A stretch of DNA of 64,000 nt from Geopseudomonas sagittaria (GTDB taxonomy: Bacteria > Pseudomonadota > Gammaproteobacteria > Pseudomonadales > Pseudomonadaceae), in NCBI RefSeq assembly GCF_900115715.1, contig NZ_FOXM01000003.1, forward strand, positions 310,001 to 374,000, given 5' to 3'. This document shows, piece by piece, positions 14,433 to 17,063 of the stretch (positions are counted from its first letter, which is position 1; each line of letters opens with the position of its first letter). Below the pieces are notes generated by a model. That model was given only the letters and a program-made list of their open reading frames with translations. It did not search any database and was not told the DNA's origin. The translations under genes and the position numbers were made by a program.

Positions 14433-14948
14433 ATGACAAAACAAAACGCCTTCACTCGGGAAGAACTGCTGCGCTGCAGTCGCGGTGAACTGTTCGGCCC
14501 GGGTAATGCGCAACTGCCCGCCCCCAACATGCTGATGATCGATCGCATCGCGCACATCAGCGAGACCGGCGGCAAGTATGGCAAGGGCGAAATCGTTGCC
14601 GAGCTCGACATCAACCCGGACCTGTGGTTCTTCGCCTGCCACTTCGAGGGCGACCCGGTGATGCCCGGCTGCCTGGGCCTGGATGCGATGTGGCAGCTGG
14701 TTGGCTTCTACCTCGGCTGGCAGGGCAACCCCGGCCGCGGCCGCGCCCTGGGCTCGGGCGAAGTGAAATTCTTCGGCCAGGTCTTGCCGACCGCCAAGAA
14801 AGTCACCTACAACATTCATATCAAGCGCACCATCAGCCGTTCGCTGATCCTCGGCATCGCCGATGGCACCGTCAGCGTCGATGGCCGCGAGATCTACAGC
14901 GCCGAAGGCCTGCGCGTCGGCCTGTTCACTTCCACTGACAGCTTCTAA
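14433..14948 (+). CDS. fabA: 3-hydroxydecanoyl-ACP dehydratase/isomerase
   Basis: FabA dehydrates 3-hydroxydecanoyl-ACP and isomerises trans-2-decenoyl-ACP to the cis-3 form, the branch point to unsaturated fatty acids. The 171-residue protein matches E. coli FabA throughout. The active-site His lies in [13 protein letters not shown], and the Asp partner in Gly-Cys-Leu-Gly-Leu-Asp-Ala. Both domain halves and the segment Gly-Gln-Val-Leu-Pro-Thr-Ala-Lys-Lys are intact. It is cytoplasmic and dimeric in the family. fabB follows after 11 bases, so the pair forms one operon. Confidence 0.97.
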
Positions 14949-14959
14949 GGGTTACCCGC

Positions 14960-16180
14960 ATGCGCCGCGTCGTGATCACCGGGATGGGCATCGTGTCCTG
15001 CCTGGGCAATGACAAAGAGACCGTTTCCGCCAGCCTGCGCGCCAGCCGCCCAGGTATCCGCTTCAACCAGTCCTATGCCGACATGGGGCTGCGCAGCCAG
15101 GTTTCCGGCTCCGTCGACCTCGACCTCGAAGCGCTGATCGACCGCAAGGTCTATCGCTTCATGGGTGACGCCGCCGCCTTCGCCTACCTGTCCATGCAGC
15201 AGGCGATCAAGGATGCCGGCCTGAGCGAGGAAGAGATCTCCAACCCCCGCGTCGGCCTGATCGCCGGCTCCGGCGGTGCTTCCACCTTCAACCAGATGGA
15301 AGCCATGGACATCCTGCGCGAGAAGGGTGTCAAGCGCGTCGGCCCGTACCGCGTGCCGCGCACCATGGGCAGCACCGTGTCCGCCTGCCTGGCCACCCCG
15401 TTCAAGATCAAGGGCGTCAACTACTCGATCTCCTCCGCCTGCGCCACCAGCGCCCATTGCATCGGCAATGCCATGGAGCAGATCCAGATGGGCAAGCAGG
15501 ACGTGGTCTTCGCCGGCGGCGGTGAAGAGGAGCACTGGAGCCAGAGCTTCCTGTTCGACGCCATGGGCGCCCTGTCCACCCAGTACAACGACTCCCCGGA
15601 AAAGGCCTCCCGCGCCTACGACGCCAAGCGTGACGGCTTCGTCATCGCCGGCGGCGGCGGCATGGTGGTGGTCGAGGAGCTGGAGCACGCCCTCAAGCGC
15701 GGCGCGAAGATCTACGCCGAAATCGTCGGCTACGGCGCCACCTCCGACGGCTACGACATGGTCGCCCCGAGCGGCGAAGGCGCGATTCGCTGCATGCAGC
15801 AGGCGCTGGCCACCGTCGACACCCCGATCGACTACCTCAACACCCACGGCACCTCGACCCCGGTCGGCGACGTGGCGGAAGCCCGCGCCGTGCGCACCGT
15901 GTTCGGCGACAAGGCTCCGGCGATCAGCTCGACCAAGAGCCTGTCCGGCCACTCGCTGGGCGCCGCCGGCGTGCAGGAAGCGATCTACAGCCTGCTGATG
16001 ATGGAAGGCAACTTCATCGCCGGCTCGGCCAACATCGAGGAAGTGGACCCGGAAGTGGCCGATCTGCCGATCGTCACCCAGACCCGCGAGAACGTCACCC
16101 TGAACACGGTGATGAGCAACAGCTTCGGCTTCGGCGGCACCAACGCCACCCTGGTGCTCAAGCGCTGGACCGGCAAGTAA
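14960..16180 (+). CDS. fabB: beta-ketoacyl-ACP synthase I
   Basis: FabB condenses malonyl-ACP with acyl-ACP and is needed to elongate the cis-3-decenoyl-ACP made by FabA. The 406-residue protein has the full thiolase-fold triad: the active Cys in Ser-Ser-Ala-Cys-Ala-Thr-Ser, and the two His in Asn-Thr-His-Gly-Thr-Ser-Thr-Pro and Leu-Ser-Gly-His-Ser-Leu-Gly-Ala. The glycine-rich end Phe-Gly-Phe-Gly-Gly-Thr-Asn is present. Length and start fit E. coli FabB. It follows fabA closely and is ended by a strong hairpin, so the operon is probably just these two genes. Confidence 0.97.
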
Positions 16181-16198: not shown

Positions 16199-16230
16199 CA
16201 ACGGCACCTTCGGGTGCCGTTGTCGTTTCT
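16199..16230 (+). terminator. terminator after fabAB
   Basis: A 10-base perfect stem (CAACGGCACC with its complement) around a stable TTCG tetraloop spans 16199-16222 and is followed by a T-rich run. It lies 18 bases after the fabB stop. Confidence 0.8.
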
Positions 16231-16287
16231 GCCGCCCCTCTTCTGCCGGGAAGCTGCCCGAACCGGGACTCCGTCACTGGCACAAAC

Positions 16288-16303
16288 ATACCCTGCAGGG
16301 TAT
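16288..16303. promoter_or_regulatory. perfect palindrome, candidate operator for the DUF2892-osmC pair
   Basis: ATACCCTGCAGGGTAT is a perfect 16-base inverted repeat, 78 bases before the DUF2892 start. The shape (ATAC plus C-tract, centre, G-tract plus GTAT) resembles operators of the CsoR/CstR family, which sense copper or reactive sulfur. No such regulator gene is in the window, so the link is only by resemblance. The palindrome also contains a PstI site at its centre, which is incidental. Confidence 0.5.
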
Positions 16304-16381
16304 ACAGAGGCGTCGGGCACGGCCGCAGCGACTACGCTGAACTGACGGCATCCGCCCCCACCTGCAAGGGAGAAACCCCAC

Positions 16382-16573
16382 ATGCAATGCAACGTTGGCA
16401 AGACCGACAAGATCCTGCGCATCATCGCAGGCCTGGCCCTGCTGCTGCTCGGCGCCACTGGAGTGATCGGCTGGTGGGGCCTGATCGGCCTGGCGCCGCT
16501 GGCTACCGGCCTGCTCGGCTGGTGCCCGGCCTACAGCCTGCTCGGCATCAAGACCTGCGGCAAGGGCCAGTGA
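16382..16573 (+). CDS. DUF2892 (YgaP-like transmembrane) protein
   Basis: This 63-residue membrane protein has an N-terminal Met-Gln-Cys-Asn-Val-Gly-Lys-Thr-Asp-Lys, two hydrophobic helices (about 13-30 and 33-47) and a C-terminal Cys-Pro-Ala-Tyr followed by Thr-Cys. This is the DUF2892 domain, which also forms the membrane end of the rhodanese YgaP. Three cysteines suggest a thiol or metal role, but function is not established. It overlaps nothing and is one base from the OsmC gene, so the two make an operon. The candidate operator lies just upstream. Confidence 0.82.
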   Translation: MQCNVGKTDKILRIIAGLALLLLGATGVIGWWGLIGLAPLATGLLGWCPAYSLLGIKTCGKGQ

Positions 16574-16574
16574 C

Positions 16575-17009
16575 ATGACGCTGAAGACCATCCGCGCCAG
16601 CGGCAGCCTGGATCACGCCTTCGCCATCACCGTGGAGTCCGGCAACCACGTGATCCGCATGGACCAGCCGAAGAACGCCGCAGGACAGGATCTCGGCCCG
16701 ACCCCGCTGGAGATCATCCTCGCCGCCGTGGCCGGCTGTTTCGGCACCATCGGCCGCTTCCTCGCCCACCAACGCAAGTTCGAGCTGCGCGGCATGCAGT
16801 TCGAGATCGAGGCCGACTACGATCCGGACGGCTTGCTCGGCCGCCGCGACGACGTGCGCCCGGGCTTCCAGGCGCTGCGGGTCAAGGTAACGATCGACGC
16901 CGACCTCAGCCGCGAGGAAAAGCAGGCGGTGCTCGCGGAAATCGAGCGGCGCTGTCCGCTGGCCGACAACCTGGTCAACGGCACCCGCTTGGAAAGCCGC
17001 CTGGCCTGA
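16575..17009 (+). CDS. OsmC family protein
   Basis: This 144-residue protein has the OsmC/Ohr fold pattern: an N-terminal beta sheet, then Pro-Leu-Glu-Ile-Ile-Leu-Ala-Ala-Val-Ala-Gly-Cys at about residues 44-55 and a second conserved Cys in Arg-Cys-Pro-Leu-Ala-Asp-Asn near the C-terminus. Those are the two redox cysteines by which the family reduces organic peroxides or handles thiols. The overall sequence is closer to YhfA-like OsmC proteins than to Ohr, so peroxide activity is not certain. It starts one base after the DUF2892 stop and ends at a shared terminator. Confidence 0.85.
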   Translation: MTLKTIRASGSLDHAFAITVESGNHVIRMDQPKNAAGQDLGPTPLEIILAAVAGCFGTIGRFLAHQRKFELRGMQFEIEADYDPDGLLGRRDDVRPGFQALRVKVTIDADLSREEKQAVLAEIERRCPLADNLVNGTRLESRLA

Positions 17010-17022
17010 TCCCAGCAGCGGA

Positions 17023-17063
17023 AACGACAAGGCCCGAAGCACAGAGTTTCGGGCCTTGTCGTT
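17023..17063. terminator. bidirectional terminator between osmC-like and DUF3859 genes
   Basis: A perfect 16-base inverted repeat (AACGACAAGGCCCGAA and its complement) around a 9-base loop lies between two convergent genes. It ends in TCGTT on either strand, so it can serve both. Confidence 0.8.

Follow-up and report, generated by a model that had tools for sequence, protein, structure and literature searches.

A 16-base palindrome, ATACCCTGCAGGGTAT, occupies positions 16288-16303 of a 64,000-nucleotide stretch of the Geopseudomonas sagittaria genome (the window), upstream of a ygaP-like gene and osmC. Judging from comparative sequence data, we consider it likely that this palindrome is the operator of a sulfide- or persulfide-responsive repressor of the CsoR family, encoded on another contig (G000:C25:86574-86837) and called CsoR25 below. 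The arms of the palindrome recur before sulfide-oxidation genes, are conserved before osmC, and track the CsoR25 gene across the Pseudomonadaceae. Throughout, G000 is the source genome and C-numbers are its contigs; L-numbers are fetched loci and other G-numbers are relatives.

Results

The arms of the palindrome, not its length, carry the information

The original prediction described a perfect 16-base palindrome at this position, and the sequence is present exactly as it stated. The special status implied for the palindrome as such did not hold up, however: the window contains five perfect 16-base palindromes against a mean of 2.75 (maximum 7) in 40 first-order Markov samples, and the central TGCA varies among relatives while the arms are constant. 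We therefore rejected palindrome length as evidence and relied on conservation instead. ATACCCTGCAGGGTAT has a single exact copy in the 4.6-Mb genome, with 0.11 matches expected per window when up to three mismatches are allowed. The informative unit is the pair of arms, ATACCC-N4-GGGTAT, which occurs twice in the genome (reversed control pattern, none). With one mismatch the arms gave four matches against two for the control, which restricts the useful evidence to copies that match exactly or nearly so. Looser scans of the genome were too noisy to define further targets, yielding 29 matches against 3 for the full palindrome with three mismatches and 66 against 20 for the arms with two. A shortened pattern, ATACC-N6-GGTAT, matched three times (control, one), the additional match at C19:24667 falling inside an open frame. 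A looser genus-wide scan provided leads only; in G009, it gave no match against three for the control.

The second exact copy of the arms, found by the genome search that had been recommended, lies at C41:28074-28089, 26 base pairs (bp) before a persulfide dioxygenase (PDO) gene. This gene encodes an MBL-fold protein and heads a sulfide-oxidation operon whose next genes specify a TIGR01244(DUF442)-SQR fusion and a SulP sulfate permease. The PDO matches PF00753 and resembles the dioxygenase half of Blh, which places it among the MBL-fold dioxygenases; against NF040641 it scores 392.8 bits (1.8e-117, over positions 141-423), short of the cut-off of 625, which applies to the fused protein. A sample of eight genomes of the genus contains 15 exact sites: 8 before PDO (two of them in G025), 6 before osmC or ygaP-osmC and 1 before a rhodanese gene.

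The site is conserved before osmC

Close OsmC orthologues (54-100% identical) were retrieved at 26 loci in a search of 99 genomes, and 12 of these loci have a site with at most two mismatches within 420 bp before osmC (9 exact, 3 with two mismatches). At 11 named OsmC loci (L121-L131), the best site has no mismatch in four cases, one in two, two in three, and four or five in the remaining two; L121, L122, L125, L128 and L130 belong to the same genomes as five of the 26 loci. Comparison of orthologous regions within the genus sample bore the arms out: six of the eight members carry an osmC orthologue, and all six have exact arms before it. In Pseudomonas linyingensis and the other genus members, osmC is the first gene after the site, and G000 alone in this sample has a ygaP-like gene in between. 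More distant ygaP-osmC pairs, at L024 and L028, have neither the site nor the regulator. Thus, what is conserved as a target is osmC rather than the pair described in the original prediction, the ygaP-like gene being an addition.

A functionless chance palindrome would agree with the unremarkable count in the window, but it is extremely improbable given arms that are conserved around a varying centre before osmC, in the six genus members having the gene and in further Pseudomonadaceae, and that recur identically before PDO.

A CsoR-family gene tracks the site

No regulator of this family had been noticed in the window, correctly, as the four PF02583 (CsoR-family) genes of G000 all lie on other contigs (C12, C25, C29 and C34). 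CsoR25 (C25:86574-86837, 88 amino acids) follows a Tll0287-like (PF11845) gene and belongs to the CsoR/RcnR family, with 74.6 bits against PF02583 (cut-off 22.8). Of 198 Pseudomonadaceae genomes, 64 have a strong orthologue, defined by an E-value below 1e-25 (a cut-off chosen after a gap was seen between 2e-29 and 1.6e-8). The exact site is present in 51 of these 64 (77 copies) versus 35 of the 134 genomes without CsoR25 (40 copies; Fisher p 9e-13, in counts of related genomes that are not independent events), and the reversed control pattern in 3 of the 198. When site presence was shuffled within genera, a procedure that leaves finer kinship in, the overlap averaged 36.9 with a maximum of 48, and 51 was reached in 0 of 20000 trials. 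In relatives, the CsoR25 gene lies at most 700 bp from 12 sites in all. The proposed search for a CsoR- or CstR-type gene with a matching site therefore has a positive answer.

The association also holds at defined promoters. PDO-like matches exist in 192 of the 198 genomes, and we examined 200 bp upstream at the 30 loci of the best matches: a site with at most two mismatches precedes PDO at 26/26 loci with CsoR25 (11 exact, 12 with one and 3 with two mismatches) versus 0/4 without. In G017, G044 and G056, which lack CsoR25 and whose PDO is 83-88% identical, the left arm has decayed but the right one persists. Before osmC, the site is found at 12/13 loci with CsoR25 versus 0/13 without.

We inspected 77 of the 117 exact sites, chosen because the site search listed them or because they fell in fetched loci; CsoR25 genomes contributed 48 of their 77 sites and genomes without it 29 of their 40. 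Genes were called by a simple codon-position rule. In CsoR25 genomes, 26 of the 48 stand before PDO (16, of which L094 and L098 adjoin PDO-like proteins merely 33-34% identical), osmC (8) or a ygaP-like gene (2), and 7 lie elsewhere in called intergenic DNA. Nine more were counted as targets solely through an adjoining CsoR25 gene, which makes them circular in a comparison of genomes with and without it. In genomes lacking CsoR25, none of the 29 precedes PDO, osmC or a ygaP-like gene; 26 are inside genes, and the 3 called intergenic are in AT-rich genomes, where the calling rule performs poorly. One string deserves caution in pattern scans: ATACCC-N4-GGGTAT recurs at one place inside an rpoN-looking gene in seven genomes without the regulator (L055, L057, L058, L063, L064, L079 and L081), a coding coincidence shared by descent.

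Other sites in CsoR25 genomes widen the list of neighbours. Intergenic copies precede a rhodanese gene (L087), a 1-Cys peroxiredoxin with an FAD disulfide reductase (L092), an FAD disulfide reductase (L097) and YedE-like sulfur transporters (L103 and L107, the latter named by eye), and a second L107 site precedes a small gene and cydA (cytochrome bd). An in-gene site, L119, falls within the longest frame of another FAD reductase gene of this kind, where that gene begins. The intergenic site of L065, near the end of a plsX-looking gene, is probably due to chance.

Sites were also seen near oxidase genes. At G000:C34:409171-409186 (L231 position 2172), the one-mismatch site ATACCCATGGGAGTAT lies ~100 bp upstream of a gene judged CydP-like by eye. 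Only the first 147 bases of the neighbouring cydA match, and transposase-looking frames follow; this may be a third, now disrupted, regulon member. G050 has a similar site before cydP-cydA (L237), with cydA running to the locus end, and at L107 the site before these genes is exact. A degenerate site of the ATACCT..GGGGTAT type occupies the same place between ccoP- and ccoG-looking cbb3-oxidase genes (by eye) at L233, L234, L235 and L236 (G085, G077, G025 and G050). Terminal oxidases may therefore be tied to the sulfur regulon, though such a link is unproven.

Cysteines and operator spacing argue against a copper sensor

What does the regulator sense? In all 32 distinct sequences of the CsoR25 clade, C36 and C60 are invariant and 24 residues apart. 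Copper ligands, numbered Cys 36, His 61 and Cys 65 and located by their columns in the alignment, are kept at the first position only: residue 61 is Leu in 32/32, and residue 65 is split between Ala (26) and Thr (6). At the aligned positions 61 and 65, the copper CsoR structure 4ADZ, InrS and the C-H-C-type copies of G000 have His and Cys, and the CstR structure 7MQ1 has Asn and Cys. Because two of the three copper ligands are missing, a copper role for CsoR25 is unlikely, and a dithiol sensor is the natural reading of the sequence. The pair also departs from the CstR dithiol, which spans 29 to 31 residues: the second cysteine is at +24 in 32/32, and +29 is Ala or Thr.

The operator, too, departs from the copper type. 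Copper CsoR type-2 operators read TAC-X9-GTA with G-tracts (PMC3902906). TAC-X8-GTA is found in the 120 bp upstream of PDO at 26/26 loci with CsoR25 versus 0/4 without and, in equal 420-bp windows before osmC, at 12/13 versus 1/13; X8 thus holds in 38/39 promoters with CsoR25, and TAC-X9-GTA occurs in none of the examined PDO and osmC promoters. A copper-sensing CsoR acting on the same type of site, with Cu(I) as inducer and the pair in a copper response, could invoke both the shared Pfam family and the Streptomyces lividans copper CsoR consensus, ATATACCCCTNAGGGGTATAT, which is very similar (PMC3902906). Given the lost ligands, the X8 spacing and the genes named behind the sites (PDO, SQR, rhodanese, YedE-like and similar, in surveys that included no search aimed at copper genes), we rate this explanation very unlikely.

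In the main, the original prediction is supported: a second copy, a regulator gene that tracks the site and conserved arms in orthologous regions were all found, so that none of its three refuting outcomes came about. The prediction of a CsoR/CstR-type operator stands in its CsoR-family part, since the site tracks CsoR25 and has the TAC/G-tract/GTA layout, and fails for a standard CstR on the cysteine spacing. From the proposed persulfide- or peroxide-sensing unit, we favour the persulfide half because the genes behind the sites are sulfide-oxidation genes; copper, also suggested as an inducer, is disfavoured by the missing ligands. The tie between the PDO-SQR-SulP site and CsoR25 is one of genomic association.

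Could another regulator work the site? A sulfide or persulfide switch run by a different family, either ArsR-type (BigR, SqrR or YgaV) or Rrf2, would reduce CsoR25 to a hitch-hiker in the gene clusters, and BigR and YgaV do control such genes in other bacteria (PMC5823870, PMC9774250). We find this unlikely, in an analysis that included no search of the genome for ArsR or Rrf2 genes: the TAC/G-tract/GTA layout is that of CsoR-family operators, and site presence follows CsoR25 also within genera. Moreover, in G000 the CsoR25 gene shares no contig with either site, and the link therefore cannot be put down to simple clustering. The remaining CsoR-family genes of G000 (C12:22308-22541, C29:331845-332078 and C34:428500-428733) are identical in DNA over their matched 234 bp and encode C-H-C-type proteins. 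As PF02583 members of the same genome they are candidates too, but hardly credible ones: the metal-sensor His and second Cys are retained in them, a gene judged HupE-like by eye adjoins one copy, and in G050 and G069, which have the site, the sole PF02583-type match at E <= 0.001 is the CsoR25 orthologue. The HupE-like neighbour is near a contig end, and the three copies are perhaps carried by a repeated mobile element.

Several observations weigh against CsoR25 acting through this site: (i) 13 of the 64 CsoR25 genomes lack an exact site, although one of them, G009, has a two-mismatch site before PDO; (ii) G095, a CsoR25 genome, has an osmC orthologue without the site; (iii) 6 of the 48 inspected sites in CsoR25 genomes are inside called genes; (iv) TAC-X8-GTA is present at the one osmC locus without CsoR25 mentioned above, where it is a chance occurrence; (v) the 13-kb stretch around the CsoR25 gene of G000 holds no site with three or fewer mismatches, so autoregulation is not seen in this genome; and (vi) a consensus scan of the window locus found no sigma-70 promoter.

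Relatives of CsoR25 were also sought among 369 genomes of the class, with matches in 40, and the next eight best loci were examined. Six of them (L203-L208, 42-60% identical) keep both cysteines, unlike L209 and L210. SQR or PDO is encoded within the ~3-kb locus in three of the six, two of which also have a one-mismatch site. L205, L206 and L208, from other Gammaproteobacteria, are distant relatives that retain C36/C60 and have SQR or PDO genes nearby; the branch thus extends beyond the Pseudomonadaceae.

The window locus

The features around the palindrome are as follows.

14433-14948: fabA, upstream of the unit, named by eye
14960-16180: fabB, beta-ketoacyl-ACP synthase I, upstream of the unit, family match
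16200-16221, + strand: hairpin AACGGCACC-TTCG-GGTGCCGTT, probable terminator 3' of fabB, parting the unit from fabAB; found by eye, absent from the terminator scan output
16277-16306, + strand: possible promoter CTGGCA-N18-TATACA, proposed by eye, its -10-like hexamer (16301-16306) overlapping the right arm of the palindrome
16288-16303, no strand assigned: predicted operator ATACCC-TGCA-GGGTAT, a TAC-X8-GTA inverted repeat, proposed site for the regulator of G000:C25:86574-86837
16382-16573, + strand: YgaP-like transmembrane protein, 63 amino acids, PF11127 by profile match, three cysteines
16575-17009, + strand: OsmC-family protein, 144 amino acids, PF02566 by profile match, two cysteines
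17023-17063, no strand assigned: long inverted repeat AACGACAAGGCCCGAA / TTCGGGCCTTGTCGTT, probable bidirectional terminator between osmC and a DUF3859 gene; found by eye, absent from the terminator scan output

The DUF3859 gene beyond the repeat is on the opposite strand. Flanked by the hairpin and the inverted repeat, the ygaP-like-osmC pair looks like a transcription unit of its own. Both products are, as had been claimed, cysteine-containing proteins of the YgaP-like membrane and OsmC types. The OsmC protein is a member of PF02566 (70.7 bits, cut-off 27.5) and falls below the cut-off of NCBIfam OsmC_like_Se (59.7 against 95); it is 98% identical in P. linyingensis, the nearest named relative found.

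Discussion

What might the mechanism be? The sites and their conservation, the downstream genes, a regulator gene that co-occurs with the sites and in places adjoins them, and the invariant cysteines lead us to infer the following sequence of events. Reduced CsoR25 would occupy TAC-X8-GTA sites at the ygaP-like-osmC and PDO-[DUF442-SQR]-SulP promoters, keeping both silent. Once oxidation of sulfide yields persulfides or polysulfides, C36 and C60 would react, probably bridging between subunits, and the reacted CsoR25 would leave the DNA, turning the genes on. SQR and PDO would then oxidise sulfur and SulP may move the oxidised product, while OsmC, accompanied in G000 by the YgaP-like membrane protein, may handle thiol or persulfide damage.

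Sulfide-responsive regulators are known from another family. YgaV of Escherichia coli, which lies beside ygaP, and BigR of plant bacteria are ArsR-type regulators, unlike CsoR25. They resemble it in their sulfide-responsive control, and BigR controls the PDO-type gene Blh (PMC9774250, PMC5823870).

The nearest working parallels are CstR, YrkD and TTHA1953 (PMC5480029, PMC9405070, PMC9918477, PMC10318464, PMC9774590). CstR, the CsoR-like sulfurtransferase repressor of Staphylococcus aureus and Enterococcus faecalis (S. pneumoniae structure 7MQ1), is weakly similar to CsoR25 (phmmer E 5e-8 to 9e-8). Its cysteines are 29 to 31 residues apart as against 24 in CsoR25: C31/C60 in S. aureus, C31/C62 in E. 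faecalis (+31 by the published numbers) and +29 in 7MQ1. S. aureus CstR likely controls one operon directly, whereas CsoR25 has two sites far from its gene and from each other. The CstR-like repressor YrkD of Bacillus licheniformis likewise governs a cluster that includes sqr and pdo, but it is 50% identical to S. aureus CstR and has the two CstR cysteines (PMC9918477). TTHA1953 of Thermus thermophilus, a CsoR-family repressor of sulfur oxidation, shares with CsoR25 a TAC/GTA-repeat operator and a position distant from its targets; it differs in its cysteines (C39/C68, 29 apart), its operator (TACNNTACNNNNGTANNGTA) and its Sox pathway targets, and its DNA binding was not reduced by NaHS (PMC10318464). 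The S. lividans copper CsoR uses nearly the same operator arms, but with TAC-X9-GTA, the middle of ATATACCCCTNAGGGGTATAT being one base longer, and targets copZA (PMC3902906); its structure, 4ADZ, keeps the His and second Cys, unlike CsoR25.

In open-access titles and the beginnings of abstracts, we found no CsoR-family persulfide regulator in a Pseudomonas relative, a scope on which priority cannot be claimed. The words CstR, CsoR and operon do not occur in the text of a P. aeruginosa PDO paper (PMC12856154), and a search for OsmC together with persulfide returned nothing pertinent in the accessible parts of the literature. The predicted CsoR-family sulfur-stress regulon is of a known kind and stands out by the different placement of its regulator's cysteine pair.

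We see an even chance that CsoR25 represents an additional branch of sulfur sensors within the CsoR family, reaching beyond the Pseudomonadaceae in the Gammaproteobacteria. Such a branch would sense persulfide via C36/C60, 24 residues apart, act on a TAC-X8-GTA operator, and join SQR, PDO, SulP, rhodanese and YedE-like proteins in one regulon with OsmC, peroxiredoxin and cytochrome bd oxidase. The analysis turns an orphan palindrome into a testable regulon with a single candidate regulator, a defined operator and target genes identified by name. The site puts an OsmC protein under the same predicted control as sulfide oxidation, and the shifted cysteine pair would make it possible to test directly how copper and persulfide are distinguished on the CsoR scaffold.
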